Assembly (NCBI GenBank): GCA_019775845.1
Contig: JADQAV010000014.1
Location: forward strand, 62,001 to 126,000
From: Myrmaecium sp. VS I D KN 1
Taxonomy: Eukaryota > Ascomycota > Dothideomycetes > Valsariales > Valsariaceae
Reading direction: 5' to 3'
DNA: 64,000 bases
In this document: piece after piece, positions 131-57,733 of the stretch
Numbering within the stretch: position 1 is the first letter of the stretch
Layout: each line of letters starts with the position of its first letter
Made by a program: the position numbers and the translations under genes
Notes under the pieces: model-generated
What the model saw: only the letters and a program-made list of their open reading frames with translations
Databases searched by the model: none
Told to the model about the DNA's origin: nothing

Positions 131-2987
<2,857 letters not shown>

Positions 2988-28824: not shown

Positions 28825-31800
28825 TTACGCCTGCACCATCATCGTGAAGCTCGCACGGTTCTGATGCTCCACCAAATCCAAAAACGTGTCCCCCACCATC
28901 CCGCTCATCCCGCTCGTCGTCGCCTGCCGGATCCAATCGCGCACCGGCACCTCCTCCAGTTCCCCGCTGCTGGACAGCTCGCGCCCGAGCGCCTCCCGCA
29001 GCTGCAGCGCCGTCAGCTTCTCCGCGTTGCAGTGGTGGTAGAAGCGTGGCCCGCCCTCGCCCTCAGCACCACCACCGGTCCGTTCCTCGGACACAGAAGC
29101 CTTGACGCTCTCCAGCACGTCCCGAGCGACCACGTCCACGGGCACGAAGTCGAACTTCCAGTTCACGTCCCCGACGGCGGGGAACAGGCTGATCTTTCGC
29201 GTGTATTGGAGGATGTTCTGGATGATGTCCGTGGTCGGAGCGCCCTCGCCCGTGATGCTGGCCGGACGGTGGATGTAGACCGGGAGACCGAACCGGTCAG
29301 CGACCCGTTCGAGGAAGCGCTCCGAGGCCCACTTGCTCGCGATGTAGCCTTGCGACCCGTCACAGGGAGGGTGGTAGTCCTTGGCAGACAGCGGTGCCCA
29401 GGAGGCCGCCTGAGTCAAGTTCACGACACCACCGGTCGACACGAAATGGAAGGGGATATGGTGCCGCAGAGCCAGTTGAGCGAGCGACTTCGTGGATTCG
29501 AAATTGGGTTTGCGGAGGGTTTGATAAGACTTGAGGAAGGAGACGTCCGCACCGTTGTGGATGATGACATCCACAGTGTCAGCGAGGAATTGATAGTCAG
29601 CGTCGGATAAGCCCAACCGTGGCTCAGACAGATCGCCATGGTACACCGTGAGCTTGGAAGGATGCTTCTTGAGACGGTCCGCTGTGCTGCTTGACTGGCG
29701 CACGGCGACGCAGTAGATATGGGTCACTGTCTCGTCAGCCAGCAGGTGCTGCACGATCTCGCCCCCCAAGAAGCCCGTGGCACCGGTGAGTAGCACGTTC
29801 ATCCCAAGTGCGTTTGAAGTCTTCGGCACGTGCTGTCCCACATTAGCGAAGTCAGGAGGTAATTGCGTTTCCTTATCCCAGTCGATAGCTTCGCCAAGTT
29901 TTTCCTGTTCGGCTTTTCCGGAAAATAGCGCTGTCATGTCAGAGAGAACAGGTGAGGCAAATAGCTGGGCCAATGGAACCGTGACCCCGGTAGATGCTTC
30001 CAGGTTCTTTTGCAGCCTGACCAAGAGTAGTGAATTTCCACCGACGTCGAAAAAGTCCGAGTCGGGGTGAAGGGAAGGCTCTCCCGGAAGCAATTGGGCC
30101 CAAGCCTCTGCCATCACCGCTTCCAAACCTTCAAGTGGTGTCTCGTCGCGCGCTGAAATGTTGACATCTGTTCCAGCCAGACTCTTGAGAGCCTGGCGGT
30201 CGAGCTTTCCAGAGGAGGTGCGAGGAAGTTCTTCAACAACCGTGAAGGAAGAGGGACGCATGTAGCGGGGTAGGGGCAGAGAGCTGGCGAGACCCGAGAT
30301 GAAGTCGGAGAGATGTACGTCCACGAGTGCGTTATTGACGACAACGTAAGCAGCGAGGAATGCGTCCGCATTTTCACCTTTCAAGCACACACCTGCTGAG
30401 GATAATTTCCCTCCAGATGCCGCGACAATCGCCGTCTCGATCTCATCCAGCTCGACTCGGTTTCCTCGAATCTTCACCTGAGCAGATCCTTCCATGCGTC
30501 CCACGAATACGAGCGAGCCGTCATCCAACAGATATCCTCGATCACCTGTACGATACAGTGTGCTCCAGCCATGGGATACGTCGGTGGCGGTAGCGAAAGG
30601 ATCCTGAACAAATCTGGATTTAGTGAGTTCAGGGTCATTGAGGTAGCCTCGTGCTACACCGCCGCCCCCAACACAAATTTCACCAGGATATCCAGTTGGA
30701 ACTGGTTTGAGGTCTTCGTCGAGGATGTAAACGGAGTAGTTAGTCAAGGGACGACCGCAAGTAATGACATCAGCGTTGCCGGAGACCTGATCTCCGAGAA
30801 CAGTGCACATGCTTGAGGAAACTGTGATTTCTGTCGGCCCGTACCGGTTCCACACACGTAATGCCGGGAGATCCAGCTTTTTGAAGAGCGTACGAAGACT
30901 GGGAAAGAACTTCTCGCCGCCACAGAAGGCATTCTTCCAGGATGTACAGTGCGTCAGGTGTTCCGCACCATACAGGAGAAGATTGTTGTACTCGGAGGAG
31001 GTCATCTGCGTGTAAGTAACCTTATTGTCGGCCATCAGTTTGGCCAAGCGCAGAGGATCACGGCGGATATCCGGAGATGCAATGACTATAGACCCACCGC
31101 TGGTGAATGCGGCGTATATGCAGTCAATGGACGCATCGAATGCAACAGAGCTTTGAACCAAAGCCGTCTCGACGTCCAAGTCGGCGTCACGCTGCATGGC
31201 TCGCATTTGACACGCCAGGTTGCCATGACTGACAACAACACCCTTTGGCTTGCCGGTGGATCCGCTCGTATACAAAATGTAGGCGGTATCGGCGTAGGAT
31301 GACTGGATTGCGATCTCGTCGCTCGCAGAGGAGATATCATCGGCATTGACAATAGGAACCTCCTGGTCGGCGAGCAACGTGGCTAGTTGGCGTGTGGAGT
31401 TGTCGCATACTATCGCGCAGGGGTTGCAATCTTCGACTATGCTTCGCAACCGCTCCTGCGGATGTTCGACATCGACTGGGACATAAATACAGCCAGCGTA
31501 ATGTGTTCCCAGAACGGCTACAGCAGAGTTGAGGCTAGGGTTGCAGGCAACGATTACAGGCTTAGCAACCACCTCCCCTAGACCATGCAGGCTCCGTGCT
31601 AAGGCGTGAGAAAGACCGCGCAACTGGCGGTAAGTCAAGAACTGACCATCAGCTTGCGTGACGGCAACTGATGTAGGGCGACTTTGAGAGTGCTCTTCGA
31701 ATCGGTGCACAACGGTCTGGGTTTGATCTGGGTACACACGTTCGCCCTTGCTGACTTCCAGAGCGTGTGCTATTCTGTTGGCGTCAAAGACCTTCAGCTT

Positions 31801-34800
31801 GCCAAGCGGAATTTGGGGCTCGGAAGTAACACTTTCGAGCATTGATACTATAGATGAGATCAATAGCTCAAGGCTCTCTTGGGAGTATAGATATTCCTGG
31901 CCTTTCAGGGACAGAAGACAATCTCCATCGACGAATTCTTCAACCTCGAATACGACGTCTAGACCCGTTCTAGCATCATCCATCCGGAGACTTTCCGCTT
32001 TACAATTGCCAAGCATAGCAGAGTTGGTAGATCCCATCTTATAGTTCAGTAAGACTTGGAACAGTGGGTTCTCTGCCACGGATCGTTTCACAGGTAGACT
32101 CTGCAGAAGAGCTTGATACGGAACACTTGAATGCTCGAGGGCCTTCCGGACTTGTTTACTCGTTGTCGCAAGTACATCACCAAATGTCTGCTCTGGTTGT
32201 GCCAGCTTGAAGCGGAGGGGAACCATATTGACGAACATGCCAATAACTTCAAGTGACTCTTTGTCCGCTCGCGACGCATCCGAAATGCCAATGCAAACAT
32301 CGCTCTGCTTTGTCAGGCGGAAGATCAACTCTCTGAATACCGCGAGGTAGAGGAAGAATGAAGTGCTGCCCCCGACCTTCCTGGCCACCTCTCTGATTTT
32401 TGATGCGAGACCAACGCCTAACTTCCTGCTGACGTTGCAGATATCGTAGTGATCCAGTATCTTCCTTGAACTGACGCGCGCAAACGGGAAGAGCGGTAAA
32501 GACGATGGCATATCCTCTAGCTCGGATTTCCAGAATTCGATACTCTGAGAGAGCTGGTGTTCCTCAACCAAGCGTCGTTGAAGCACGGAATAGTCGCGAT
32601 ATTTCGGAGCGGGCGGTAGCACCTTTCCAAGTGCATAGATTGATTGGAGGTCTTTAATGAGTAACTGTGCGCTGAAGCCGTCCAGAACAATGTGGTGGAA
32701 TCCAAGGATAAGGAAGTGAGTTTCGTTCGATAGAGAAAGAATATCGACTCTCATGGTTTTCCCTTTCTCCAAGTCATACACATGCTCCTTCAGGGACCTG
32801 TAGGCTTGATCAACTTCCTCGACATTTGCAATGGATCGAATGTTAATCTCAATCTGTGACTTCGGAAGGATTCCTTGGTAAAGCTCCAGAGAGCCGCCCC
32901 CGAGGAAAAACGCTGTTCTGAGGGACTCATGTCTCTCAGATATCAATCTGAAAGCCCCAGCTAACTCCGTAGGACGGAGGGGTCCATCAATAGCATACGA
33001 AAGAGTAACGTTGAACGTTGTCGGGTCAGTCAAGGTCTCGTGGAGAAACCAGATACGTTCTTGAGCGTACGAGGCTCTTTCGGTGGCCTGAAACTCCGAT
33101 TGGGAAGGAAAAACCTCCTCACACGAATCCTTAGCGCCGAGTTTTGGGGAGAGGCTCTCTGGTGTGGTCGCTGAAGACTCAGGCAGGCTCGATGCGTCAG
33201 TGGTCTGTTCGTGCTCGGACAAAAGAGAAGACTTGTCATCTGTCATAGATCGCCCGGAGAGAGGTGTCGTGCTGCGTGTCATCGTTGAAGTGGTCGAGGG
33301 CACTTGCAATAACTCGGATTTCGGTCTTTGATTTTGTTCAACCTGAGGGATCTGCGAAGGTTGGGCATGACTCTCATCGGTAACTGTTGCAGGCTTATTG
33401 AACACCTTGCCAGCGAGGACTGTCCGACAGGCGTCACGAGCCGAACCTCCACCGAGAATCTTCAGTACCGGGATGTCCACATCAAGCTCGTTCAAGAACC
33501 AAGTTCTGATCTCCACTGCCATCAACGAATCCACACCAAGCTGCACCAAGGGTTGATTTTGGTCAATATTATCAACCGGGAGCTGAGTGATCCGACTGAG
33601 CTTCCCGATGAACGCCTCTTCAAGAATAGCAAGCGCTTGTTCTTGGTCATCAGCTGTCTCGAGCAGCTGTTTGACCGGCATGGACGTTTTCCCGACATCC
33701 TCAGATTTATGAGAGATTCGCTCAAGCACATGGTGTGCGAAACGTGGATCAGAACTCCAAAAGGGGTTGTCATCCAGCGGAGCAAATGGATCGCTTCTGT
33801 CGAGGCCGGTGATAACTTCTGAGGACCTGTTTGACTCCGGCCGGCCTGCGAGCAGGCCCTCCATGAAGATACTATGCATGTCATGCTCTGAAAGTGTCAT
33901 GAACTTGTACTTTGCAAGCTGCCTCTCAAAAACACCTGTCTGGGTAATATAGCCCACACCTAGGACCATGCCGATGTCGATCGTAGATCCGGAAAGGCCA
34001 TGTCGTCGACGGTCGCGCATTAGTTCAGCCATGAAGAGGTTGGCCGCGCCATAATTTGATTGCCCGCGGTTCCCAACCACGGAAGCGGTGGAGGAGAAGA
34101 CGAGGAAAAAGTCTAGGGTATTGTCCTGGAACAATTCCGCGAGATGTTTAGTGCCTTCTACCTTGGGCCCCAGCACCCGGATCATCTCAGGATAGGTCAT
34201 GTCGCTGAAAAGGCAGTCGTTGAGCACCATGGCCGCATTCGCAACGCCCGCAATGGGAGGCATGGACTTGCAAATCTCGTGATAGACAGCGTTGACACGG
34301 GCCCGATCGCTCACATCCATTGCGAAGGTGTTTACAGTGGCCCCCATTGCTCGTAGTTCATCAATGACCCGCCGGTCAACCCTTGACGGGTCTCGCCCAC
34401 ATAGAGCGAGGTATCGCGCTCCATTCGACACCATGAACCTTGAGATTGACAATCCAAGACCACCAAGGCAACCGACCAGAAGGTAAGTCACGTCGTCTCG
34501 GAAGATAATCCTCGGGTTGAGAGGTTGCACATGAGCCGAAAGCGCAAGCGAGTCGTCCGTCCAATCAAGCAGAGGTAATGTTTGCCGAGGGCGTTGAGTG
34601 TCCTGGAGGAGCCTCACATCAACCACACAAGGATCAAGGACGGGGAACTTCTCCAAGTCAATGCATGAAACTGCATTGCTCAACGCCTCGACACAACGCG
34701 GTATGCCTAACGCGACTTCATCCATATCCGGTGACATGCCAAAGAGGTCCATCCTGCCCAAGAAATACAATCTCGTACTAGGCAGTATTGACTCGACAGT

Positions 34801-37800
34801 AGGTCTGTCCAGCGTGCCCGAGAGGTCCACTAATGCACGTGGGCTGAGCCTTTGGATGCTTTCAGCTTGTAGACGGGACGTTGAAGGGCCAACGTATAGA
34901 CGTCCATTGCTTCGCTCTGCCGGATCGGACGTCGTCCATATGTACTTGATAGCGTCACTCTCCCCTTGAGATAGTAGCTGTTGTACCAAAGGAGTCGCAT
35001 CGTTCACCAAAACGACTGATTGCTTTCGTCGTCCCGGCCTCGCTAAGCGTGCCAGCAATGTTGTTCGGATGGTGTCAGCAACAGCGATACTGCAGACGAA
35101 CGACAATGTCCTCGCAGGATCCTCCCGAAGGTCTTTCCATGAACATTTCACAGCGCATGTGTCATCGACGGTCACAATATTGCTGTTGGTGGTGGAGCTA
35201 GCCACTACTTGGTCACCAATTTTGAGGCGTTTGTTTTGAGCCCCAACCTCAGCTACCGTCCCGTAAACGAGGAACAGTCTGGTACCATCAAGCGTCACAG
35301 GTTCCAAGGACGAGAACATCGTTCTGACGCGAGCTTGCGTTGAGCTAAGAGCAGAGTTCAGCCGTGGTGACGGAAGTACCAAATCGAAGGTACCCTTGCC
35401 AGGCACAACCTCCAAGACCTCGGTGCTAGGCTGAGCGCTCCTAGTGATGGATCGACGAGAAGCATTGAGCCGGTCGTTTCTATCATGGCTTGAAAGGATT
35501 CGCGGTATCCACAGTGCACCACCTTTCAAGACGAGCTCCGGCTCCGTCGTCCATAGGCGCTGGGTAGTGTCTGACAATTTGCTGCTCAGGGTCAACCTTA
35601 GGGCGAGCCCTAAGATCTTATCAATGTCTACCTTCTTGAGCGATAGTTCGTCAGGAGAGATAGATAAAAACTGCAAGCGCAGCTGAGGCATCTCGTGACG
35701 AAGTGACCGCCCCAGACCAATAGTCATGGCTGCATACGGGTTTTCGTCCTGCAAGACCCATAACACATGTTTGGCCTCGCTGAAGAATGCTTGCAGATCG
35801 CGCAGTGAATTTTCCGTGAGCTGTTGGAAATACGGTGTGTCAAGCTCAGAGGCGCAGACAACGAGTGATGCTGTTGATAAGAGCTCGGTGTTTACGTCTT
35901 TGAGCGACTCGACTTGAACCAAGGGGACCTCAGGGCGCAGGCCATGTAGTCGAGAACCAAGGCTCGAGATCAACTTGGAGCCGCTTCCGTCCGTACTACC
36001 AACAAGGAGAACTTTCTCATCCTGACTCCAGGGGATGTCGATTGGATTACGGAGCATTTGAATTCCGTTATCCACAGCTTGGCTTGCCAATACGGACGTC
36101 ATATGCTTGGAGGCGTCCCTGAAGTCATGGAGGGCGACATCAACACCAGAGAAGCCAGTGCTCTTCAAGATGCTGTCCCATTGCTCTTGACTGATTGTGG
36201 GAGCATAGCGACGGCCATCGTCGCCACCCAGCCACCAACCGGGGAGGCCTGACATCATCAGCTTTACTCGCAGGATGTCGCTGGTAATTTCGAGTAATAG
36301 CAGGTAGCCTCCAGGCTTCAAGAGTCTGCGGGTATTCCTAAGCGTCTCGGCCAGGTTACTAGTTGCATGCAAGACGTTCGAGGCGATAATGATGTCATAG
36401 GCACCTTCCTCGTAGCCTTGGTCCTGAGGTGAACGCTCGATGTCGAGAGTCTTATAAACCATCTTGTCCCTGTAGGCGGCGAACCGTTCCTGTGCATGTT
36501 CGAAGAATCCCGCAGATATGTCGGTAAAGGTGTATGATGAAAACTGGTTATTGAGACCTTTCAGCACAATGTTAGTTGCACCCCCGGTCCCTGCACCAAT
36601 TTCCAGTATGTTGGCACGAGCATATCGATGCGTGATCTGCTTGGCAATGCCGCTGAGACATGTGTTGCTGTTTTCAAAGCCCAATCCGGTGCTGTAGATC
36701 CTGTTGAGCATGTCGTTCTCGACCATAACCTCGAGCGCGGGAACTTGGCCACGGACAATCCTTGGCAGGTTTCTTCCGACAGCGGAGATTAAGTCGACAT
36801 CGATTTGGCCTCTACGCTTTCGAAAGAAGGGCTCCAGGTCTTCCCAGGTGTCATTTTTCCAAGAAGCAAGAACGGTGGAGTGCTGCCCACTCTCCACTTT
36901 GGAGAAGAGCACATCGGTAAACTCGAAAAGCCGTTGAAAATGCCACTCGAATGATTTGGCCTCTTCAGCAGGGACTTCTCTGCGAAGATTGCGCAAATAG
37001 TAATACGAGAGCCTCTCACAGAACTCGACCAGTTCGATGTCATCGGCAGAATCCGGAGGAATGGTGTTTTCAGGGGTCGGACCGTCGGAGACATCCATTT
37101 CCCAGACTGTTTCCGTGAATATTTCGCGGTCGTTTGAAGCTTCCGCAGGGCGCAGGTTCGTAGCGGTGAGACGATGTACTTCAAGGGCGATCCGGTCGGA
37201 GCCTTGGACCATGATTTCGAGATCTGCAGAAAGAGATGCATGGTTGTTCTCGGTCAGATAAGCATCGATGTCTACGAAATTTTGAGGAAGGCTCCGGTGA
37301 GACCACACATCGGGGTAGAAAGTAATTTTGCTGATCGCCGTAGGAACGTAAGGCGCGGAAAGCGAAGAGTCACCTGGCCAGCAGAATGCAGCAAAGATGG
37401 TCTGGAAGGTGATATCGAGCAGCGCAGGATGGACAAGCAGGTCGTCACGGGCGTCACCACACGCCTCCGCCGTTGCAAATCCCATCCTCCGACTAACTGC
37501 GCTCATACGTCGGAAATCATCAGAGTAATTCAGGCCAATCTTGTCCAACGCAGAGTAGAAAGTATCAACATTGATACTTGTGAGACCTGGAACAGGATTC
37601 GTCTTCGTGTGTGATCGCTGACGAGAAGGTGTGCCATCATCGTCAAAGACAACGTGTATGCTGCCACACGCATGACGTTCCCAAGCGTCCGCAGATGCAT
37701 TGGTACAGGAGTATATGGCGAAGTCAGCTGCCGGAGACAGATGGTTGTTCTTCACGGGATTAGATTTCATGGTGAAAAGGACCTCGGTGCCATCGGATCC

Positions 37801-40800
37801 ATCTTCTAGCAGCATGGCGTTGAATAACTGAACGGATTGCAGTTCCACACGGAGAGGTTGACGCCCAGAAAACAGAGTCTTAGATGCTTCCAGAGCCATG
37901 GCTAAGTATCCAGCGGCAGGAAAAACCACTTGACCCTCAACCTTGTGGCCTCGAAGCCATGGTAGATCCTCAGTTCGAAGGATATTGCGCCAGCGCAAAT
38001 CATGGTGGATATTTTCGATCGATTGAGAGCCAAGCAAGCAATGCTTTGGCTCAGACCGGCTCCTGTAGGCTTTAGATAGCCTTGGCTCTCTCCAGTATGT
38101 TTGTTCATGGTCCCAGGCATAGGAAGGAAGTCGCAAGGGTCGCGCAAAGCCACTACTCCGGATAGCAGGGAAGGAATTTGCATATGCTTCGAAATCAATC
38201 CATGACCAACCTAGACATTCTGAGACGGATCCAAGGGCCTTGGAGAATGCCTCTACATCGTTACATCCTCTTTCGAGGAGACCAAAGTAGGGCAACGTCA
38301 AGGAAGAGAACGCTTTGAGGTTTTGGCCTACTGGACCTTTCAGCGCTGGGTGGGGACCAACCTCAAGAGCAAGGTCCAGCTCCGGCTTCTGGGCAAGAAG
38401 CGTTTCCAAGGCTTGAGAGAAGAGGACCGGGTTTGTCAAATTCTGGTTCCAGTAAGTGTCTTCCAGGGAAGAAAGATCGGAGTCGGCGTCAAATATGCGG
38501 CGATCTACACTTGAGACCCACGTGCAAGCACGTGCTGGACGTTGAACGGATATGCGGCATTTGCGTAAGGAGTTGACGTAGGGTCCGCTGCAAGGTTGCA
38601 TGTGACGGGAATGGTAGGCTTTGTCCACTCGGAGAACCCTCGCAAATGTTCCTTCCTCGTCAAGAACGCGCTTTGCAGCTTGTATCGTCGATTCATCACC
38701 AGACAAAGTGACACTGGATGGAGCATTGCTGGCAGCTACTGAGATCGTGCCTTCGAACTCAGGCCTGGAGCAGAAATCCTTGCCCTGTTCATAGGAGAGA
38801 CCTGCGGCCATCATGGATCCTTTACTACCATCAACACCGCCAGCTAATCTCGAATGAACACCGCGGTAGTATGCAATACGAATAGCATCCCTGGCAGACA
38901 GGAATCCTGCTGCATAGGCCGCAGCGATTTCACCGCTGGAATGGCCAACCACGTAGTTGAACTGGATACCACACAAAGCAGCCAAGTCAACCAAAGCTAC
39001 TTGCACGGCTGTGCAGAGAGGTTGTGATATCTCTGCCTCTCCCAGTCTTGATTCGGACGCATCGGCTTCCAGTTCTTTGACCAAAGACCATGTCGGGCTA
39101 TCTTCCAGCTCGCTCAGCGAGTCGTCAAGCTCTTTCAGCGTCCTTGCAAATGCTTCAGAAGAATGTAGCAGCTCTTTTCCCATCGCTGGCCATTGCGCCC
39201 CCTGTCCGGTGAATACACCCAATAGAGTGTAAGGTCCTTGCTTTGACGAAGCCCGTCGCCCAATCTTCAAACCGGGGTTTTGGGACAGCGAAGTGGTTAT
39301 AACGGAAAGTTGGGATACCAAATTCTCATGGTCCACACCGGAAAACGACAAACGTAGTGGGAATTCAGATCTTCTCCTGAGATTGAAAGCCACTTGATTT
39401 AGATCCTGGTCAGGGTGTGACTCAAGGAATTTCTTCAGTTTCTCGACGTTGCCTGCGAGTGAACGTTCCGAGTTGGCGGTGACGATAATCGGGGTAACGT
39501 TGGGCGCAGCTGGGTGGCAGCTTCGGACGGAGAGTTGCTGTTTGGTTTCTTCCTCAAAGGCCTCCAAGATGACATGGGCATTTGTTCCGCCAAAGCCGAA
39601 ACTGTTGCACGAGGCGCGTCGAACACCACCAGCGGTGCTGGGCCAGGGCTGAGGGTCGATCGGAATCTGGACTGGTCCATAGAACTTCTCGATGGCCGGA
39701 TTGAGCTTGTTAAAGTGTAGATTCGGCGGGATGATTCCGTGTTGCAATGCTAACGAGGCTTTCAGCAAACCGGCAAGCCCAGCACAGCCTTCCAGATGGC
39801 CAATCACTGTTTTAACCGAACCAACATAGAGCTTCGATTCACTAGCGTCCGAGAGATTCGATTCGAAGAAGCTGTTATAAATGGCCTCGGCCTCGATTGG
39901 GTCACCAGCCTAGGAAACCTATTAGAAAATGACAGCGTGGTGTACAAGCAGAAGACATACCGGAGTTCCCGTTCCATGAGCCTCAAAGAACTGACACCTG
40001 TCAGATTCCTGGTGGTAATCTAGGCCGGCACGTGCATAGGTATCCCGGATTAACGCAACCTGAGATTCAGCGTTTGGCATCGTGATGCCTCGAGTACGCC
40101 CATCCTGATTAACACCTGTTTCCCTGATAATACATTCGATACTGTCCCCATCTCGCAGGGCTTCACGGAGGGGCTTCAGGACAACAGCTGCGAAGCCTTC
40201 GCCACGAGCATATCCGTCTGCCCCTTCGTCCCACATTCGCGAGTACCCGCTCGGCGATAGCATATGCAACTTCGACTCCGAGATCATCATGTCAGGGCTG
40301 AGGATCAGATTGGCTCCTGCTACAACGGCGAGCTTGGTTTGCCCGCTTCGGAGGGCTTGCACCGCCTGGTGGACTGCCACCAAGCTCGAGGAGCACGCAG
40401 TATCAATGGTCATAGACGGTCCTTTCCAATCGAAAAAGTATGAAATACGATTTGATACAATGCTCCTCGCGGTTCCAGTAGCGAAATACTTCGGTAGTCG
40501 ATCCACATCCCGAAGCATCAGCTCGTTAAAGTCAGCCGTCATCAGCCCAACATACACGGCAGTCTTTGATCCCTGTAATTGCTTAATGGAGTAGCCGCTG
40601 GCTTCGATTCCCTCATAAACCGTCTCAAGCAGAAATCTTTGTTGGGGATCGATCGCTTCTGCTTCACGGGGGTTGATGTTGAAGAAAGACGCATCGAAAT
40701 TTCGGAAATCATCCTCGAGGAGATATGCTCGTGTGGCATTTGTGCAACCTGCACGTTCACCATCAGCATCGTAGAAGCCTCGGACATCGAAACGGGTCGA

Positions 40801-40935
40801 CGGGATCGTCGCAGAAAGGTCTCGAGGAGCATTCAACAGCTCCCAAAGTTTCGAGGGGGAAGAAGCTCCTCCAGGAAAGCGACAGCTGCTGCCGACCACA
40901 GCAATGGGCTCGGCAATCGAAGTGTTTCCGGACAT
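28825..40935 (-). CDS. Hybrid highly reducing PKS-NRPS, single module each
   Basis: Exon 1 is 40935-39961 and exon 2 is 39909-28825 (51-bp intron inside KS); 4019 aa. Domains with rough residues: KS (Cys near 178 in DTACSSSL, then EAHGTGTP and GHLEGCAG); AT ([11 protein letters not shown], ~647); DH ([10 protein letters not shown], ~978); C-MT ([12 protein letters not shown], ~1426); a decayed ER region (~1830-1950) with no nucleotide-binding GGVG motif; KR (GCLGGLG ~2133, SNYGAANLF ~2277); ACP (LGVDSL, ~2451); C (HHIVLDG, ~2728); A ([10 protein letters not shown], ~3204); T (GGNSLL, ~3615); terminal reductase-like domain (TGATGFLGG ~3696, Y-x3-K in GYIASKW). All key residues except in ER look intact. 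It should make a C-methylated polyene, couple it to an amino acid, and release it as an aldehyde or by Dieckmann-type closure; the retained Tyr/Lys favours reductive release. It is divergent to the hydrolase. Fusarin-synthetase-like by context. Confidence 0.96.
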
Positions 40936-42804: not shown

Positions 42805-43527
42805 ATGGCCCCATTTGGTACTTTGTACACATATCTTCCCAACGCTAGAATTCTCAAAGTAAGACAAAATTTGGCGCATTATAAGAGGATACTAAAACGT
42901 TCCGCATTCTAGATTCAAGCGGCAGCTCAAATCAACGGGTTGGAGCTTGAGGTTCCTAAGGACTTCGCTTTTGGCGAGGCCAACAAGACGCCGGAATTTC
43001 TGCGCAAGTGGCCGCTTGGGAAAGTCCCAGCCTTCGAGACGCCCGATGGAGTTTACCTCGCAGAATCTTCTGCCATAGCTTATTTCGTCGCTCAATCAGG
43101 GCCGCAAGCTGAGCAACTCCTGGGATCCAACGCAGTCGAAAGTGCAAAAATACAGCAGTGGATCCAGTTCGCGGACAGCGAGATATTCCCAAACGTGATC
43201 GATCTTGTCTCCCCTTACGTGGGCAAGGCTGTTTTCGACCCTAAGGTGGAGGCAAAGGCTGATGCGAACCTTGAAAGAGCATTGGGAGCCTTGGAGAGGC
43301 ACCTCAGCGGCCAAACCAAGCCGTGGGTTGCGACCGGACAACTCTCCCTAGCGGACTTAACCATCGCGTCGGCATTGTACTGGGGCTTCATGCTTATCAT
43401 CGATGAAGAATGGAGAGGTAGACTTCCGCGGGTGATGGACTGGTATCTCAAGACTATCAAGGCCGAGAAGGTAGTCAATGTGTTCGGGGAGCCCCAATTG
43501 GTCGCGAAACGCGCTCGACTGTCCTGA
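42805..43527 (+). CDS. EF1B-gamma/glutathione S-transferase-like protein (Fus3-like)
   Basis: Two exons, 42805-42858 and 42913-43527 (54-bp intron, GTAAGA...CTAG), give 222 aa. The start MAPFGTLYTYLPNARILK is a typical N-terminus of the EF1B-gamma-type GST domain and is missed if only the second exon is read. The thioredoxin-like half ends with the glutathione-contact motif LAESSAIAYFV; the helical half contains LSLADLTIASAL. There is no C-terminal EF1G domain, so it is a free-standing GST-fold protein as in fusarin (Fus3) and, more distantly, pseurotin (PsoE) clusters. Possible roles are glutathione-dependent double-bond isomerisation or handling of a reactive polyene intermediate; both are inference. 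It sits tandem behind the hydrolase. Confidence 0.88.
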
Positions 43528-45543: not shown

Positions 45544-45859
45544 GTAGGCAGTTCAAACGCACAGCTCGAGCGAACTGACACGAGGTTATTCAATTGTCAT
45601 TTATGGCAATGGATGGCTAGCAGGTTGGCTAGTTGTATTATCTACGTTGCGCAGGATGCATTACAAAAGCGCCGATATTGTTGGCTGATCGGTTCGGTCG
45701 TTCGCGCACAAAGTCACCGAACGTCCCACCACGCCAGCATAAGGATGCGCAGCACAATAAAAGAAACCCTTTGAGGACCGTAAAATGTCACAGGATATAC
45801 CTGCTTGATAAGCGTATTTTCAACTTCTCTATCGATATCGGTCCGCATCTAGGGCGAAA
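45544..45859. promoter_or_regulatory. Divergent promoter, P450-1 / P450-2
   Basis: 316 bp. An inverted pair TTCGGT (45693-45698) and ACCGAA (45716-45721) lies near the middle, inside CGGTTCGG...CACCGAACG. The same word occurs in the PKS-NRPS/hydrolase promoter. An A-rich CACAATAAAAG element near 45750 may be a core element of the P450-2 side. The regulatory role is inferred. Confidence 0.5.
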
Positions 45860-47801
45860 ATGGGGTTCATCGCCTCCATGCTGGCCGCCTTGGCTGCCAT
45901 TAGACCGGGCACTCTGCAACATGGCCTTATGCTATCTGCATTTGCGGGCCTGATCATAGGCTTCGCGGTTCTGATCCGTCAAAGGCTCAAGGTTCGGAAT
46001 CTGGTGAGTATAGCCTCCATTGGAGCCTTGTTCTCTGTTAACGGTTTTTGGGCAGCCTGGTCCCCCGCACAATCTTATAATGGGACATCTGCCGGTGATG
46101 GTGGAATTAGCCAAACATACTCCCCAGGACCTGCACCCTCAGGCCCAGATGACGATGCTCCAGCGAGTGTACAACCTTGGAGATTTGTTCTGCGTGGATA
46201 TCTGGCCGCTGATGGACCAGGTCTATGTCATCTCAAACCCAGACCTGGCGTATCAGGTGGCACAGAAAAGGGCGCTTCCTCGACACCCCATGGCCCTTCG
46301 CTTCATCAAGCCTTTCACCGGAATGAACAGTCTTATGATCGCCAACGGGAACAAGTGGAAAGAGCTAAAGGCGATCTTTTCTGCGGGGTTTTCGAATGCT
46401 AACCTAATGACGATGATTCCGGTGATGGTGGAAAAGACCGAAGTGTTTCGCTCGCTGTTGGCGGAGTACGCGTCCGAGAAGCGACTCTTCCAGATGGAAG
46501 TCATCTCTGCGAAGCTCACCGTTGATATCATCGGGCTGGTCGTACTGGGCGTGGACTTCGACACGCTTAGAGGCGAAGACGAGCTCGTTTCTGCTTTCCG
46601 GAAGTTACTTACTCTCATGCCCGACAGTCAGAAAATCAGTCTGAACCCCTTTCGACCACTGCTCCGCATCTACTACGGTCACGTCATGGATAACTATATC
46701 CGCCGGGCGCTACGAGCCCACATGGCCAAAGGGCCGGCCAAGCAACGCACGTTGATGGACGTTGCGATCGAGAAATTCCAGGAACGGAAGAAGACGCACC
46801 CGAACGAATCTGAGTTCTCTAGCTTCGAGCAGATTGCGGTCGATAAGTGAGTGTTACTTCAATCGCTCAATGATTACATCGTGATCAGTACTGACGCCGT
46901 CATCTACAGCCTCAAAACGTTCGTGTTTGCCGGCCATGACACGAGTAGCACGACGATCTCGGTATGCAACCCCCAGCCATTTCCTCCATGTTTGCTGACG
47001 GTTGCTGGCAGTATGTCTACCATCTCCTCGGGAAGCATCCTGAGGCGCTGAGGAAAGTGCGTGAGGAGCACGACCGCGTCCTTGGAAAAGATGTGGCGCA
47101 AACGGCGAAAGTCCTGTGCGATAACCCTACGATCATCAACCGGTTGCCCTACACGACGGCTGTGATCAAGGAGACTCTTCGTCTTTACCCGGTGTCCGGC
47201 AGCCTCCGACTCGCAGAAAAAGGGTTCGTCAGTCCCCTCCCATCCCGACTCGTCATCCTAACAGAGATCATCCAGAACCACATTCACCCCGAGGCGCGGG
47301 CCACCGGTCACCTTGAGCGAGCCCAGCCTCGTCTGGGTTGCCGTGCACACCATGCACCACGACCCCGATCTGTTTCCGTGCCCGGATGAGTTCCACCCGG
47401 AGCGTTTCCTCGACGCCTACGAGATCACGCACGAGGACGGGACGAAGGAGAGCGTGCCTGCGGGATGGAACGGTCACGTGCCGCCGAACAACGCGTATCG
47501 CCCGTTCGAACGGGGCCCGCGGCAGTGCACGGGAAGCGAGATGGCGATGATCGAGGTGCGCATCGTCCTGGCGATGACGCTACGGGAATTCCGCTTCGAG
47601 GTCGCGTTCGATGACTGGGCTCGCTTGCATCCCGAGGAGCGGAAGGCGAGCGGTGACATCCGGACCGCGTTCGGTGATGAGGCCTATCAGGTCTTCTCGG
47701 CCACGGCGAAGCCGAAGATGAGCATGCCGATGCGCGTCTCGATGGACCCGGCTTATCAGGGTCACGCTCGCCCGGGAAATGGAACGGTCGAGAAGTCATA
47801 A
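45860..47801 (+). CDS. Cytochrome P450 (cluster P450-2)
   Basis: Five exons, 45860-46003, 46056-46846, 46910-46961, 47012-47223 and 47276-47801, with introns of 50-63 bp, give 574 aa. The N-terminal anchor is LMLSAFAGLIIGFAVLI. After intron 1 comes PGPPHNLIMGHLP. The I-helix FVFAGHDTSSTTIS is encoded across introns 2-3, ExxR is in ETLRLYPVSG, the meander has FHPERF, and the heme loop is FERGPRQCTGSEMA. It looks related to the StcS-like/long-chain group of fungal P450s rather than to P450-1. The exon 4/5 junction (donor GTTCGT) is the least certain. The last exon is more GC-rich than the rest. It converges on the A1-peptidase-like gene. Confidence 0.9.
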
Positions 47802-47953: not shown

Positions 47954-49321
47954 CTACTTCCAATTCGACAGCGGCGCCAGTCCAAAAGCCAGCTTCTCAA
48001 AGTCCAAGATAACATACAGCTTCTTCAAAAACGCAACACCGAGTGGGATCACCGTGGCATCCCCGCTCACAGTCTCGCTGTATCGCCAAAGGTTCACATT
48101 CAAATAGCACCGGCCCGTCCCCTCAAGCTCCTGCACATAATCCGTCGGGGCCAGCGTGTAGTTCGCCCGACCATCGAGCTCGTACACCACCGACGGCAAC
48201 CGCTCCGCCGCATCGCAGTCGACCAGATACCAATCCTGCGCGGTGGCGGCCGTCGGGCTCGAGCTGCCCTGCGCCGCGATCGCCGTCACGGTGTCGTTGT
48301 CCGCCAGCGTCGCGCCGGCGTAGGCGACCAGATCCGCGTACGCGCGCGCGGACAGCGGCACGCCGAGGCCCTCGGACCCTTCGTCCAGCACGGCGATGGG
48401 CGCCACGGAGGTGGGTCGCTTCTTGTGCTTCTTCGCCGCCGCCGCCGCCGCCGCCGCTTCCCCGGCACGGACGCCGCGCTTCACGGAACCCGTCGACACC
48501 TTCACCGCGTAGTTGGCGGACGTCGTCCCGTTCGGGGCGACCAGCCAGCCGCCCGTCCACGCCGTGGACCAGTAGTTCGACTTGGGCGGCGAGTAGGGGT
48601 AGAAGGCCTCGCCCAGCCAGGTCGGGTCGACGATCGGGTACCATTGCAGGTCGTCTGCGTCATACAGCGTCTCATCCGACCCGCCGAAGACGAACTTGGC
48701 GTCGCCGCCGAGGCAGGTTTCCTTGGACGTCAGGTTGGCGCACGAGTGCCACCCGACCTGGGGACCCGTCTCGCCGCTCTTCCACGCTTGATAGCTGGTC
48801 GGATAGAAGGTCTGATTCAGGCCGGCGGTGACGGGGGCGAGGCCGTAGATGCCCCCGAACGGCTCGACGGGCACGGCGGCGCCGGCGAAGGGGAAGTCGG
48901 AGACCTGGAAGGTGACGTTGGGCATGGCCAGCGCGCCGATCCGGACCACGTCCGCGCCGTAGTCGACGGTGAAGTCGTCCGCGAACGCGGTCACCGGCCA
49001 GCTCAGCTCCGGCAGGCTGGTGTTGGCGAAGCTGGTCGAGGCGCGCTCGTCGAAGTATTGCTGCCCGGAGGCGACGCAGAGGGAGGGGTTGTAGGCTTGT
49101 GTGCACCGCCCGCTTCGTGCGAAGAGTGCGACCCAGGTCCAGTCGCTGAGCATGGTGAGGTTTTGCGGCGGCGTGCCGATCGAGATGTTGAAGAGGTATC
49201 CGTATTCCTCCCATGACGCCGGAACGGAGACCGTCTTTTGCGAGGATGAGGACTTTGTCGGATGGGCGTGGCCTCCCATGACCATTGCGGCCGCGGCCAG
49301 CGTCCCGAACAAGGAATACAT
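47954..49321 (-). CDS. Secreted pepsin-fold (A1) protein with altered catalytic motifs, Fus4-like
   Basis: A single exon of 455 aa. An N-terminal signal peptide (LFGTLAAAAMVMGGHA) and nine N-glycosylation sequons indicate a secretory or vacuolar route. The pepsin fold is shown by YLFNISIGTPPQNLTM and by the later GLGVPLSARAY context. However, the two DTG/DSG motifs read SDWTWV and LDEGSEG: both aspartates stay, but the following Thr/Ser-Gly pairs are changed. An Ala run plus Lys/Arg patch (AAAAAAAAKKHKKR) is inserted between the lobes and is encoded by a GCC-type repeat. An A1-peptidase gene (FUS4) of unknown need is part of fusarin clusters, and pyranonigrin clusters also carry one. The start at 49321 is chosen because the signal peptide begins there. 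Confidence 0.86.
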   Translation of the reverse strand: MYSLFGTLAAAAMVMGGHAHPTKSSSSQKTVSVPASWEEYGYLFNISIGTPPQNLTMLSDWTWVALFARSGRCTQAYNPSLCVASGQQYFDERASTSFANTSLPELSWPVTAFADDFTVDYGADVVRIGALAMPNVTFQVSDFPFAGAAVPVEPFGGIYGLAPVTAGLNQTFYPTSYQAWKSGETGPQVGWHSCANLTSKETCLGGDAKFVFGGSDETLYDADDLQWYPIVDPTWLGEAFYPYSPPKSNYWSTAWTGGWLVAPNGTTSANYAVKVSTGSVKRGVRAGEAAAAAAAAKKHKKRPTSVAPIAVLDEGSEGLGVPLSARAYADLVAYAGATLADNDTVTAIAAQGSSSPTAATAQDWYLVDCDAAERLPSVVYELDGRANYTLAPTDYVQELEGTGRCYLNVNLWRYSETVSGDATVIPLGVAFLKKLYVILDFEKLAFGLAPLSNWK

Positions 49322-50848: not shown

Positions 50849-52115
50849 CTAAACCCTCCTCAACCTCACAAAAACAAACCAACACCGCACCTCCGCATCC
50901 GGGCTCTCCCTCAAAAACGTCTCGTACGTCCTCTCCTTCCACAACCGCACCACCTCCTGAATCTTCCTTTCCAGCTCGCCCCTATCCCCCTTGCCCCCCT
51001 CCTCCTCCCCACCCCCCCAAGCCTCCCAACACGCCTTCCCCAAATACCCCCCAATAACCGCCATAACCCACTCCACCACCACGCGCGCATACTCCTCCTT
51101 GCCCAGCGTCCTCCTCCTCCTCTCCTCCCCGGCGGGATGCTCCACACACTCACAGCACAACCTCTCCAACCTCCACAACCCTTTGACCCCCTCCCCATCC
51201 CCCCCATCCTCCCCAGCAGCAGAAAATACCCCCCTCACATCCTCAACCCCCCTCTCAAAAACCGGAACCTCAAACCTCCCCAGCACATCACCACCCAGCA
51301 CCCCATCCGCCACCAACCCGCCCAACGCCTTCTTCGCCGCCGCCACGAGGGGGCCGTAATTCGCCTCCCCTTCAGCGTCGGGGCGCCCGACAAACGACAC
51401 CATCAGCGGCGCGCCCGGGACCAGCTCCGCCGCGCGCAAGCGCAGGAAGTGCTGCAAGTCGGCGCGGGATTGGGCGCGGGCGAGCTGCTGCCGTTGTTCT
51501 GGGGTGTGTGAGGGGTCTTTGACGGGCAGGGTGGAGAGGTGGTGCAGCGCGGCGAGGGAGAAGGCGGCGTGTGCAGTGCTGGGGGGCACGACGGGGGCGT
51601 AGAAGGAGGTGGGGATCATGGCGGGGAAGGTCCTGGGTGCCCAGGGGTGGGCGGAGATGGTCTGGGCGAGGGCGGTGAAGTCGTTTTGGGGGCGGTCGGT
51701 GAAGAGGATGGTGGTGGGCTGGGGGTTACTGGTGGTGGAGGTGGACGTTTTGTAGGATTGGATGAGGGTGGTGAAGGGGGGGATGCTGGGTGGGTTGTTA
51801 GGAGGGTGGTGGTTTGGTGGGTGGGAGGGGGAGGACGTACGAGTTCAGGCCTTGGGAACAGCCGTAGTCGATGGCGGTGAAGGTGGTGTTTGGTGCCGGG
51901 GTGGGGAGGGAGAGATCTGGTGGTGGGAAGAGAGGATATGATATGTGAGTGGAAAAACTATGTACATGCGTTTCGGGGGGGGGGGGCAGAAAGAGCTAAC
52001 CGTCGAAGAGTAAGGCGAGGGCGCGGTGCATGGCTGCGGTTTGCAGGCCGCAGTTGTCGTTGTAGACGCCCTTGCCGGCCATGGGCACGTCGTTGACAGT
52101 GGTGGAGGTGGTCAT
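50849..52115 (-). CDS. SABATH-type SAM-dependent carboxyl methyltransferase (possible Fus9 counterpart)
   Basis: Exons 52115-52001, 51916-51841 and 51785-50849 (introns 84 and 55 bp) give 375 aa, the usual size for salicylate/jasmonate-type methyltransferases. The N-terminus (KGVYNDNCGLQTAAMHRALA) is followed by the SAM-binding motif AIDYGCSQGLNS, seen only after joining exons 1-3. Later motifs are LFTDRPQNDFTALAQT and the cap-helix region PTSFYAPVVPPSTAHAAFSL. The C-terminal half is Gly/Glu-rich. These enzymes methylate free carboxylates. Fusarin C carries a methyl ester made by Fus9, so an ester-forming role in this cluster is a reasonable inference. The start ATG at 52115 was chosen by frame; it is the first ATG after in-frame non-conserved sequence. 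Confidence 0.85.
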
Positions 52116-52356: not shown

Positions 52357-52845
52357 TTACAAGGGGGTAGTCATAACGGCGGCGATGAAGGAGAGCCAGG
52401 CGGGAATGTCGGCGACGAGCATGCGGACCCGGTGCACGCTCAACCAGGTCTCCATCTCACGGGTCGCCCCCTCGGGATGGCGGTCCTCGACCATGTTCTG
52501 GATCGGCCCGGCGACCCAGGGGACGAAGAGGAGGTGGCCGACCGCGCCGGCGAGGCCGGCCCAGTAGAAGGGGGAGCGGTCCGGTCGGCCGCGGTCGATG
52601 TAGAGGCTGGCGCAGGCGGCGGAGATGGAGGTCACGTTCAGGCCGACGACGAGGTAGATGGCCCGGTCGAAGACGTACCGGTACCAGCGCGGGAGGACGC
52701 CGTTGCTGCCGGTGCGGATCTCGTGCTGCAGGAAGGCGTTGTTGACGATGAGCTCGGTGGTGGCGTAGGCGAGGCTGGCGGTGCTGGAGGCCAGCGGCGC
52801 GACCCGCAGCAGCCGGATGGGGTCGAAGATGAGTCCGGAGGCCAT
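52357..52845 (-). CDS. Small four-helix membrane protein, DUF1772-like
   Basis: A single exon of 162 aa. Four hydrophobic segments can be seen: near the N-terminus (RVAPLASSTASLAYATTELI), then YLVVGLNVTSISAACASLYI, WAGLAGAVGHLLFVPWVAGP, and the C-terminal VADIPAWLSFIAAVM. The last is preceded by METWLSVHRVRM, resembling the W-x-H/R signature before the last helix of DUF1772 proteins (the family of anthrone oxygenases such as HypC). The family link is tentative. It has no counterpart in the fusarin set that I know of. It lies tandem with the methyltransferase and divergent from the MFS gene, well inside the cluster. Confidence 0.75.
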   Translation of the reverse strand: MASGLIFDPIRLLRVAPLASSTASLAYATTELIVNNAFLQHEIRTGSNGVLPRWYRYVFDRAIYLVVGLNVTSISAACASLYIDRGRPDRSPFYWAGLAGAVGHLLFVPWVAGPIQNMVEDRHPEGATREMETWLSVHRVRMLVADIPAWLSFIAAVMTTPL

Positions 52846-53701: not shown

Positions 53702-55624
53702 ATGGCTTCTGCCAAGTCCGACACGCCCATGATCCCCCACACGGAGGAAGCCCCGACCCCGGTTCCGGCTCCGGTTCCGGCGTCGTCTCCGGAAGAGGAG
53801 CCTCAGGCTCGCCAGGGTGAACAGCTACCACAGCAGCAGCAACCGCAGAAGCTCGACTGGCGCTTCTGGGCTATCTTGCCGGCGGTACGTTCCCTTTCCT
53901 TCCATCCTATCAGTCTATCTCCATCTCCTCGACAGCCGTGACGATGGACGTTTCTGTCTGGCGTCCTGCATATCATTGTTGTTGCGGGAGTCCTGCTGTG
54001 CGATCAATACACAGCGACAACAGCTAACAGCCTCCTCCAGCTCTGTGCAACCACCTTCCTCTCCGCCCTGGACACCTCCATCATCTCCACCGCCTTGCCC
54101 ACCATCTCCGAGGACCTCCACTCCGAAACCCTTTACATCTGGACCATCAACGCCTACCTCCTCGCCTCCACCGCCGTCCAACCGCTCTATGGCCAGATCG
54201 CCAACATCTGGGGTCGCCAGTGGACCACCATCTCCGCCGTCGTCCTCTTCGCCGTCGGCAGCGGCATCTCCGGCGGCGCCCACAACACCGCCAGCATGAT
54301 CGCCGGCCGGACCGTCCAAGGCATCGGCGGCGGCGGCATCAACACCCTCATCGACATCGTCATCGGCGACCTCGTCCCCATGCGCGAGCGCGGCAAGTAC
54401 GTCGGCCTGATGGGCTCCATGTGGGCCATCGGCTCCGTCATCGGCCCCGTCATGGGCGGCGCCCTCGCCCAGCACGCCACCTGGCGCTGGATCTTCTGGA
54501 TCAACCTGCCCCTGTCCGGCGTCTCCCTCGTCCTGCTCCTCCTCTTCCTCCGCACCCGCTACCCCCGTGCCGACACCTGGCAGAAGCTGCGCCGCGTCGA
54601 CTACGCCGGCAACACCGTCCTCGTCGCCGCCGTCACCGCCATCCTGCTCGCCCTCACCTGGGCCGGCACCGTCCACCCGTGGGAGTCCTGGCGGACGCTG
54701 CTGCCCTTGCTGCTCGGCGTCGCCGGCCTCGTCGTCTTCCAGTTCCACCAGGCCTCCCGCTTCTGCAAGGAGCCCACCATGCCCGTCCGCCTCTTCGCCA
54801 ACCGGACCGCCTTCTTTTCTTACTGCCAGGTCTTCGTCCAGGCCATCCTGCTGTACTGGGTCTGCTACTTCCTGCCCGTCTACTTCCAGGCCGTCCTCGG
54901 CCACTCCAGCACCCGGTCCGGGGTCGACCTGCTCCCCATCTCCCTCCTGACCGCCCCCTTCGGCATCATCACCGGCATCCTCATCGCGGTCACGGGCAAG
55001 TACCGACTGTACCACTTCCTCGGCTTCGCCTGCATGGCCCTCTCCGCCGGCTTGTTGACCTTGCTCGACCACACCTCCCCGACGGGCCAGTGGGTCGGCT
55101 TCCAAATGATCTTCGGGGCGGGGTGCGGGATGATCTTCTCCTCCACCCTCCCGCCCATCCAAGCCTCCCTCCCCGAAGCCGACATGGCCACCGCGACCGC
55201 GACCTGGGCCTTCATGCGCTCCTTCGGCGCCATCTGGGGCACCTCCGTCCCCGCCGCCATCTTCAACTACCGCGTCGACCAGCTCCTGCCCCAAATCGAC
55301 GACGCGTCCGTCCGGGCCGCGATGGCCAACGGCGGCGCCTACGCCCTGGCCGGCGAGGGCTTCGTCGGCGCCGTCCGCGCCCAGAGCCCCGCCCTCGCCC
55401 GCCAGGTCCTTGCGGTCTACGAGAAGAGCCTCACGCTGGTGTGGCAGGTCTCCATCGCGTTCGCGCTGGCGGGCTTTTTGATGACGTTGCCGGTGCGCGC
55501 GCTCCCGCTGCGCCAGGAGCTGGAGACGGAGTATGGGTTGGATGAGAAGCAGCGCGCGCAGGAGGATCGGGAGATGGGGGTGGTTGAGACGACTGCGGGG
55601 AGGGGGGAGGGGGGGAAGGCGTAG
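53702..55624 (+). CDS. MFS drug:H+ antiporter-type exporter (14-helix, Fus6-like)
   Basis: Exon 1 is 53702-53884 and exon 2 is 54041-55624; the 156-bp intron has donor GTACGT, branch GCTAAC and acceptor CCAG; 588 aa. A Pro/Glu/Gln-rich cytosolic tail precedes the first helix (CATTFLSALDTSIISTALPT, motif D1). Motif A is seen in YGQIANIWGR and motif C in GSVIGPVMGGALAQHATWRW. Further helices run to VWQVSIAFALAGFLMTLP. This is the DHA2-like toxin-exporter family common in metabolite clusters, including fusarin FUS6. It presumably sends the product across the plasma membrane. The gene is very GC-rich at third positions, which makes long false ORFs in other frames. It converges on the FAD gene. 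Confidence 0.93.
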
Positions 55625-56079: not shown

Positions 56080-57733
56080 TCACAACCTCGCCCTCCCCCT
56101 CCCCTCCACCTCACACGTCTCCCGCACCCCCAACGCCCCCACCTCCACACTCTCCACCCGCCCCCTCGTCATCATCTCCGCCACCACCTTCCCCGTCCCC
56201 AGCGCCAAGCTGATGCCCCACGGTCCATGGCCGGCGGCGATGAAGACGCCTCCCTGGGCCGGAGCCTGGGCCTGGGCCCCGGGCGCGGCCTCCGCGTCCG
56301 GCTTCGGCTCCGCTGCGCCCTGACGGCCAAGCTCAGCCTTCGGCTTCGCCGTCGGCCCTAGCAGCTCATCCGGCACCCTCCCCACAACCGGCCGCCCGGC
56401 CGGTCCCGCGGGGCGGAAACACAGACCCTGGCGGAGGAGCGTGATGCTCTGCTTCTCCTTCTTCGTCTTCCCCCCCTTCTCTCCTGCGTCTTCTGGGGAA
56501 GAGGAAGAGAAAGGCAACCCATACAACGCACACGCCGTCTCCTTCAGCCGGGCGATCTGCGACGGGTCCGGGGTCGCTTTGCCCTGCTCGGCGGGCGGAA
56601 GGGGGATGGTGCCGCTGTTGAGGCCGGCGAGGTAGATGGTTCCTGGGGGGTTTTTGTTAGCTGCGGGGGTTTCTCGCTTGCCTTCTTTTTTTTTTTTTTT
56701 CTTTTTTTATATACGTACCGTCCACACGCGAAAACATCTCCGGGAAAAACGTCCCGCTCGGATCCGTCGCGAAGACGGCGTGCGTCGTCGTCGTCGTCGT
56801 GCCGGACGCTTCCCCCTCCTCCTTCTCCTTCTCCTCCCAGGCTGCAGAACGCATCAAGATCGAGTGCCCCGACACCGGCGTGATGGGGATGCGCAGCGGG
56901 GAGGCGGGGAAGAGGGTGCGGTAGAGGTCGGGCGTCCAGGCCCCGGCGGTGAGGAGGAGGTGGGTGCAGGGGATTACTGTGCTGGTGGTGCTGGTGGTAG
57001 AGGTGATACGCACCCCCTCGACCGCGCCGGTGCTCGCGTTCCGCTGCACGCTTGTGGCTTTGTGGCCTGCGTGGAGCGTGACGCCTTGCGCGAGGCAGCG
57101 GGTGAGGAGCCAGTTGCAGAGGCGGAGGGGGTCGCTGCGTTGTGGGTGTCAGTCACGGCTCTTTTTGCGTGGAGGGAAGGGAGGGGGAGGAATGGAGGTG
57201 AGTACTCACACCTGCCCCGTCGTCCGCTCATCCCCCAAAACACGGACATCCTTCCCCGCCGCCCGTCGCAACCACTCCGGCGCCCGACCCGTGCGGTGGA
57301 ACCCTTCCCCCGCCGCGGCGCCGGCTCGACTCACACCCGCCCGCAACCAGTCCTCGGGCCTCTCCCTCTCCCTCCCCTTCCCTTGCCCCCCTTCTTCCTC
57401 CTCCTCAACAAAGCTGAGGGAAGTACTCCCCGTCCACCCCCACGCCTCCCGCCCCCCGTGCTCGGCGGCCAGCTGCGCGTGCAGATCGAAGCTCAACTGG
57501 CCCAGCGGCGCCACGGCGGCAGGGAACCAGTCGCGTGCGAGGTAGCCGGCGGCGAAACCGGAGGCGGAGGTGAAGAGGGAGGTGGCGGGGTTGGGGTCGA
57601 TGAGGTGGATTTTTGGAGGGGGGGAGGAGGAGGATGAATGCTGTTGATGGAGGGAGAGGTAGTAGGCGCTGCTGAGGCCGATGATGCCGGTGCCGAGGAT
57701 GGCGATGGATTGCTGGGGGGCGGAGGAGGACAT
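56080..57733 (-). CDS. FAD-dependent amino-acid-oxidase-fold oxidoreductase, TDA3-like
   Basis: Exons 57733-57210, 57134-56719 and 56642-56080 (introns 75 and 76 bp) give 500 aa. N-terminal FAD-binding Rossmann motif: IAILGTGIIGLSSAYYLSL. A DAO-fold middle follows, with VDPLRLCNWLLTRCLAQGV (only after splicing to GTGAGT) and TPVSGHSILMRS. The C-terminal FAD-contact segment is AAGHGPWGISLALGTGKVVA. It resembles yeast Tda3 and its many fungal relatives, which oxidise unknown amines. Several low-complexity insertions (Glu, Thr, Ala/Gln runs) are present. Whether it belongs to the cluster or is the right-hand border gene cannot be told; nothing like it is in the fusarin set I know. Confidence 0.87.

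Follow-up and report, generated by a model that had tools for sequence, protein, structure and literature searches.

What does a polyketide synthase-nonribosomal peptide synthetase (PKS-NRPS) make when its cluster resembles the fusarin C gene set in part and departs from it in part? This question is raised by a 64,000-nucleotide stretch of the Myrmaecium sp. VS I D KN 1 genome (contig C4:62001-126000 in a 25.66-Mb assembly of 66 contigs), referred to below as the window, in which a PKS-NRPS gene and its neighbors occupy positions 28825..57733. A preliminary description had called this locus a fusarin-type cluster with an unusual complement of accessory genes. Our analysis favors a different reading, which we consider probable: an intact cluster for an undescribed polyene 3-acyl-pyrrolin-2-one, belonging to a third, uncharacterized lineage beside fusarin and pseurotin.

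Phylogenetic position and adenylation code of the synthase

The reading frame of the synthase is open, consisting of a 3694-amino acid open reading frame (ORF) plus exon 1, with a single 51-bp intron. Pfam identifies KS-C, AT, DH, methyltransferase, KR, two carrier stretches, condensation, AMP-binding and male-sterility-type R domains in the long exon, while the N-terminal part of KS was found separately. Because no enoylreductase (ER) family is among the best 25 of 29 Pfam families, we refer to the ER region as degenerate. The active-site stretches that were inspected are kept (KS Cys, AT, DH, cMT, KR, both carriers, C-domain HHxxxDG and R-domain YIASK), and YIASK, an intact YxxxK motif, fits a predicted reductive release.

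A protein search with the synthase scored 2125 candidates and yielded 1976 matches at E <= 1e-30, the best 120 of which were used. The closest among the matches listed are from Aspergillus sclerotialis and A. venezuelensis (43% identity, full length), with A. oleicola at 39% over 58%. In a full-length FastTree of these 120 rows, the window synthase and a 765-amino acid ORF fragment of the genome's second PKS-NRPS, the window synthase groups with this Aspergillus trio at a support of 1.0. Window and trio together are sister to a larger group of two halves, one comprising NRPS14 of A. udagawae and its kin, the other FUS1, LUC5 and a Metarhizium enzyme, which we take to be NGS1. Window and trio are likewise joined in the C-domain tree (60 of 60 chosen rows, support 98) and in a KS+C tree of 36 chosen rows (support 96), while the KS tree (57 of 61 chosen rows, four short ones being excluded) places the window outside a 32-row set containing both the fusarin and NRPS14 halves (support 97). 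A check by KS and C trees had been proposed in the preliminary description. It revealed no grouping with a different characterized family; instead, the window synthase joins uncharacterized proteins or, in the KS tree, no firm partner. The trees were built without pyranonigrin, cytochalasan, himeic acid and flavipucine synthases, and rows named for pyranonigrin or cytochalasan are absent from the best 120 of the 1976 matches.

Approximately unbiased (AU) tests were performed with the 36 rows of the KS+C tree. One constraint held the window together with 11 fusarin, NG-391 and lucilactaene rows against 24, Trichoderma and Penicillium rows not being held inside the fusarin group; the other used a 9-row NRPS14 group that includes Sarea, Chaetothyriales and P. 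digitatum. Placement inside the fusarin rows was rejected for the window (p 5.9e-6) and for window plus trio (4.6e-53), as was placement inside the NRPS14 group (6.5e-4 and 3.9e-3, respectively); given the length of the window branch, these p-values need care. The A. fumigatus pseurotin synthase psoA is also called NRPS14 (PMC11051388, PMC4209032), and it is from this shared name that we infer the A. udagawae protein (P0016) to be a pseurotin maker. Among the clades described in PMC7421883, fusarin is II-A and pseurotin II-D, and three uncharacterized clade-II groups are reported. The KS and C trees place the window synthase within the group (clade II) in which fusarin and NRPS14-type enzymes are united, its YxxxK motif is intact and a hydrolase gene is adjacent. 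We assign it to the pyrrolinone-forming PKS-NRPSs of clade II, the chemistry being a prediction from these features.

The nine-residue code of the A domain, read by alignment to GrsA numbering, is DADQFGRVS, and is identical in the window synthase and the three Aspergillus sister proteins. The corresponding codes are DVDYFGRVS in NRPS14, DMTFSAGII in FUS1 and DMTFLSGIN in both LUC5 and the Metarhizium enzyme. Between the window and FUS1, 8 of 9 code positions differ, compared to 2 of 9 between the window and NRPS14. Homoserine is the amino acid of fusarin (PMC10967133); because the window code is unlike the FUS1 code, homoserine is an unlikely substrate for the window synthase. The term 'fusarin-type' is appropriate for the wider PKS-NRPS group that holds fusarin, but in its narrow sense it conflicts with both the AU test and the A code. 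On the strength of these sequence comparisons we replace that label and describe the synthase as a third lineage, next to fusarin and the NRPS14 group.

Accessory genes and comparison with known clusters

The second P450 (P450b) had been listed as a cluster member, and its relatives bear this out. A P450b protein search scored 7997 candidates and returned 211 matches at E <= 1e-20, the best 120 of which were used. Among the matches listed, A. venezuelensis (48%) and A. sclerotialis (46%) come directly after the two nearest relatives. In each of these species the P450b and PKS-NRPS matches lie on equally long contigs (40875 in A. venezuelensis, 60892 in A. sclerotialis), and for this reason physical linkage of a P450b relative to the sister synthase is very likely in both. 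P450b is a partner of the synthase lineage in at least three genomes and no odd insertion. The best 120 of the 211 matches, many of which are unnamed, include neither an A. oleicola relative nor one named FUS8. The nearest relatives among the matches listed, from the black Aspergillus species A. heteromorphus and A. brunneoviolaceus (59-61%), are closer to P450b than are the proteins linked to sister synthases (46-48%).

The glutathione S-transferase (GST) matches EF1-gamma at E 1.4e-38 and PDB 5f8b/5fhi, presumably PsoE, at E 6.7e-23. The hydrolase belongs to the FrsA-like family of Pfam and keeps the Ser elbow GASMGG as well as the Asp in AADTMYF; in an alignment with one strong genome paralog (27%, full length), the paralog's EEHC aligns with LQ-A. 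PMC7421883 connects the hydrolase with the pyrrolinone core, and the cytochalasin hydrolase AspoC has been suggested to act non-covalently (PMC8752850).

Family searches of the Myrmaecium genome, whose counts are lower bounds, placed on contig C4 none of at least 12 ALDH matches (11 of 15 candidates scored, 4 unscored), none of at least 3 FSH1 matches and none of at least 25 ADH_N (trans-acting ER, or trans-ER) matches. Thus, the lack of a FUS7-like aldehyde dehydrogenase and a FUS5-like hydrolase, claimed earlier, holds at the family level.

The window shares with the fusarin C (fus) and lucilactaene/NG-391 clusters its synthase domain order, the absence of a trans-ER, a hydrolase, an EF1B-gamma-like GST, a P450 and a methyltransferase. 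In contrast to these clusters, its synthase lies outside their clade and bears another A code, its contig has no ALDH or FSH1 match, and it possesses in addition the linked second P450, an anthrone-oxygenase-like gene and a shared promoter motif. Seven genes had been said to match the fusarin C set by family. This is correct at the family level, but the A1 protease, the major facilitator superfamily (MFS) transporter and the methyltransferase match broadly only, and the A1 protein is without the usual DTG. With the pseurotin cluster (pso, psoA/NRPS14) the window shares hydrolase, GST and P450, and both A codes end in FGRVS; unlike that cluster, it has a synthase outside the NRPS14 group, a second P450 and a SABATH methyltransferase. 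The different end product predicted in the preliminary description is a reasonable reading, and the product is probably other than fusarin C.

The most similar systems are the uncharacterized PKS-NRPS genes of the Aspergillus trio, which fall in the same group and have the same A code, a P450b relative being on an equally long contig in 2 of 3. Because their identity to the window synthase is 43% (two, full length) or 39% over 58% (A. oleicola), they probably do not make the same compound as the window. We found no described product for the lineage in the literature, A. sclerotialis and A. venezuelensis being covered (no look-up was made for A. oleicola or the black Aspergillus species), and the passages seen of PMC8403587 and PMC10734572 hold nothing on it. 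According to PMC7421883 (Table 1 for fusarin), the fusarin and pseurotin clusters are without a trans-ER, unlike the himeic acid and flavipucine clusters.

Promoter motif and extent of the cluster

The motif AAGTC(A/G)CCGAA occurs in four exact copies in the window, all of them intergenic, and in two copies with one mismatch, one between synthase and hydrolase and the other at 1575. The PKS-NRPS, hydrolase, GST, P450a, P450b, methyltransferase and DUF1772-like genes each have a site at a distance of 122-264 bp from the start codon, while none is present, even allowing one mismatch, in the promoters of the A1-protease-like and FAD oxidase genes. When 8 promoters were searched for shared 11-mers without guidance, the divergent DUF1772/MFS region being split at 53250 into two, the motif was the most shared 11-mer (5 of 8 promoters), a count reached by 0 of 120 shuffles and, in a second run, by 1 of 1000. 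The shorter GTCRCCGAAY has 5 matches in the window, the fifth being inside a Zn2Cys6 gene, and 0 of 100 shuffles reached 5. The exact 12-mer AAGTCRCCGAAY is present 23 times genome-wide compared to 16 for its reversed control, and 4 of the 23 lie within this 10.4-kb stretch. A wider genomic regulon was considered and rejected: the only other close motif pair (contig C11) sits inside open frames, and the other 17 sites were left aside. Taken together, the motif distribution is good but not final evidence of co-regulation, and suggests a regulon of the seven genes named above. CCGAA half-sites suit Zn2Cys6 regulators. The Zn2Cys6 gene (about 22.1-24.25 kb) lies about 4.6 kb past the synthase 3' end, outside 28825..57733, and is perhaps the cluster regulator; a search of 700 bp around its start revealed no motif.

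The SABATH methyltransferase has Pfam (PF03492) and PDB matches, whereas the DUF1772-like protein matches Anthrone_oxy (PF08592) below the cut-off (E 0.025; 15.2 bits against 27.3). The A1-protease-like protein has DWT and DEG at the catalytic motif places, where A1 proteases usually carry DTG/DSG, and is perhaps inactive as a protease. GC content at third codon positions (GC3) is 0.574 for the PKS, 0.585 for the hydrolase, 0.626 for the GST, 0.665 for P450a and 0.71-0.82 for P450b, compared to outer-gene values of 0.87 (A1), 0.82 (methyltransferase), 0.957 (DUF1772-like), 0.956 (MFS) and 0.81-0.83 (FAD). As a boundary marker GC3 was rejected; it rises along the block but not strictly, and fails to separate motif-bearing from motif-free genes. 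On the right, an AT-rich block starts at ~58.3 kb, just past the FAD gene, and extends for about 10 kb, beyond the end of the window (GC 0.23-0.30).

Gene models were spliced by hand and then scanned against Pfam. They bear out the gene types and coordinates given in the preliminary description, and likewise its alternating strands: to the right of the synthase come hydrolase, GST, P450a, P450b, A1-protease-like, methyltransferase, DUF1772-like, MFS and FAD oxidase genes (Table 1). No Rfam families or tRNAs were found in the window, and among the NCBIfam matches listed none is above its curated cut-off. A Myb_Cef (Cef1/CDC5-type) splicing-factor gene at 420-2417 (-) provides a housekeeping anchor at the left end. 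The second PKS-NRPS of the genome (C63:8301-28300) belongs to another clade, as judged by its N-terminal fragment, and an ADH_N (trans-ER-like) match at C63:21674-21937 is <1 kb from its KS.

Table 1. Genes and promoter motif sites of the cluster region, in window coordinates.
Feature	Position	Strand	Details
PKS-NRPS synthase	28825..40935	-	4019 aa, 1 intron 39910-39960; KS-AT-DH-cMT-(degenerate ER)-KR-ACP-C-A-T-R
FrsA-type alpha/beta hydrolase	41331..42599	+	422 aa; candidate Knoevenagelase (FUS2/PsoB role)
EF1B-gamma-like GST	42805..43527	+	222 aa, one intron
Cytochrome P450a	43915..45537	-	508 aa, two introns
Cytochrome P450b	45860..47801	+	577 aa, four introns
A1-protease-like protein (Pfam Asp)	47954..49321	-	455 aa
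SABATH-type S-adenosylmethionine (SAM) carboxyl methyltransferase (PF03492)	50849..52115	-	375 aa, two introns
Anthrone-oxygenase/DUF1772-like protein	52357..52845	-	162 aa; sub-threshold match
MFS multidrug-type transporter	53702..55624	+	588 aa
DAO-family FAD oxidase	56080..57733	-	506 aa; Pfam scan covered first 175 aa only
Zn2Cys6 transcription-factor gene, candidate regulator	22091..24253	-	two ORFs, splice provisional; Zn_clus E 2.1e-8
Motif with one mismatch, AAGGCGCCGAA	41199..41209	-	between divergent PKS-NRPS and hydrolase genes
Motif AAGTCGCCGAA	42648..42658	+	147 bp upstream of GST ATG
Motif AAGTCACCGAA	45711..45721	+	between divergent P450 genes
Motif AAGTCACCGAA	52336..52346	+	221 bp upstream of methyltransferase ATG
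Motif AAGTCGCCGAA	53067..53077	+	222 bp upstream of DUF1772-like ATG; MFS ATG 625 bp away, same divergent region

Alternative readings, proposed route and meaning

We considered whether the locus might be a true fusarin/lucilactaene/NG-391-type cluster from which FUS5 and FUS7 have been lost and whose product is a homoserine-derived fusarin congener. The broad families agree (PKS-NRPS, hydrolase, EF1B-gamma-like GST, A1 protease, MFS, P450 and methyltransferase), as does the lack of a trans-ER, which is reported for fusarin clusters (PMC7421883, Table 1). Set against the AU rejection, the 8 of 9 differing code positions and the missing ALDH and FSH1 matches on the contig, this agreement leaves a fusarin congener very improbable. 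A pseurotin-type cluster that uses a Phe-like amino acid would account for an A code only 2 of 9 positions off NRPS14 and for the GST match to the structures we take to be PsoE. However, the AU test rejects that placement with and without the trio, the GST is closer to EF1-gamma, and two P450s with a SABATH enzyme are unlike the pso genes; we give this possibility little weight.

The extent and integrity of the cluster were weighed in the same manner. All ten genes might participate, since the A1, MFS and FAD genes lie within or adjoin the block, and the fusarin proteins FUS4 and FUS6 likewise belong to the A1 peptidases and MFS pumps, respectively (PMC10967133). However, fus3-fus7 are largely dispensable for fusarin in F. 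fujikuroi (PMC10967133), and in wcoA mutants fus4 reads go up while other fus genes go down (PMC10971159), so that an A1 or MFS gene is of little informative value even in fusarin clusters. With their promoters devoid of the motif, cluster membership of the A1-protease-like and FAD oxidase genes is not supported. The pump taken by itself stands at about even odds, because the DUF1772-like gene, which bears the motif, diverges from the same region, the site being 222 bp from the DUF1772-like ATG and 625 bp from its own. Participation of all three is rather unlikely. A decaying, silent cluster would be in keeping with the adjoining block, whose part within the window has a strong signature of repeat-induced point mutation (RIP; composite index 1.47), and with the altered His stretch of the hydrolase and the altered A1 motifs. 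In contrast, the core frames are open, the synthase active-site stretches are kept and 28825-47800 is free of a RIP signature (index -0.67), making decay improbable.

Several observations weigh against an intact third-lineage cluster with a seven-gene regulon. The KS tree fails to join the window with the trio, the highest KS identity of the window synthase is to Trichoglossum (70%), and its branch in the KS+C tree measures 0.72. A Hypoxylon protein named PsoA (P0117) falls outside the NRPS14 group, in a different clade in the full-length, KS and C trees, which leaves the NRPS14 name as the basis of the pseurotin anchor. The canonical His of the hydrolase seems to be absent, as judged from the one pairwise alignment described above. 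The protein search with the methyltransferase gave 0 matches at E <= 1e-8 among 7997 scored candidates, which was probably swamped by low-complexity words and is no sign of absence. The methyltransferase and DUF1772-like genes carry the motif, but their GC3 (0.82 and 0.96, compared to 0.57-0.71 for the core) counts against membership. The motif itself was first noticed by eye, after the fact; 2 of 100 shuffles reach its 6 one-mismatch matches in the window, and when real left-flank DNA, presumed non-coding, was drawn 120 times, 5 of the draws reached 5 of 8 via A- or T-rich words. Given 1 of 1000 shuffles, yet 5 of 120 real-DNA draws, at the same count, a chance origin of the motif was rejected with caution.

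For the favored cluster, that of a third-lineage polyene pyrrolinone, we propose the following route. The iterative PKS would build a C-methylated polyene without enoyl reduction, given the degenerate ER and the lack of a trans-ER on the contig, and the C-A-T module would add an amino acid that is not homoserine and may be hydrophobic or aromatic. Release of the chain as an aldehyde would fall to the R domain, whose YxxxK is intact, and the FrsA-type hydrolase may assist pyrrolinone ring closure by Knoevenagel condensation. Oxidation of the chain and formation of a methyl ester would then follow, carried out by both P450s and the SABATH methyltransferase, perhaps with the anthrone-oxygenase-like protein. 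The seven genes would be co-regulated through the CCGAA-type promoter motif, perhaps via the neighboring Zn2Cys6 protein.

If so, the locus might belong to a third, conserved pyrrolinone-synthase lineage that has an A code of its own and a dedicated second P450 and makes an undescribed class of compounds, run in this fungus as a seven-gene CCGAA regulon and with a hydrolase that closes the ring without a full Ser-His-Asp triad; we regard this fuller picture as possible, albeit somewhat doubtful. This would add a new branch to a pathway type already known and no new kind of biology, setting an uncharacterized branch of a well-studied metabolite group apart from its better-known neighbors. The motif provides a testable gene set for the cluster, and with this set and the equally testable prediction of an amino acid other than homoserine, metabolite mining could be aimed better than by the label 'fusarin-type'.

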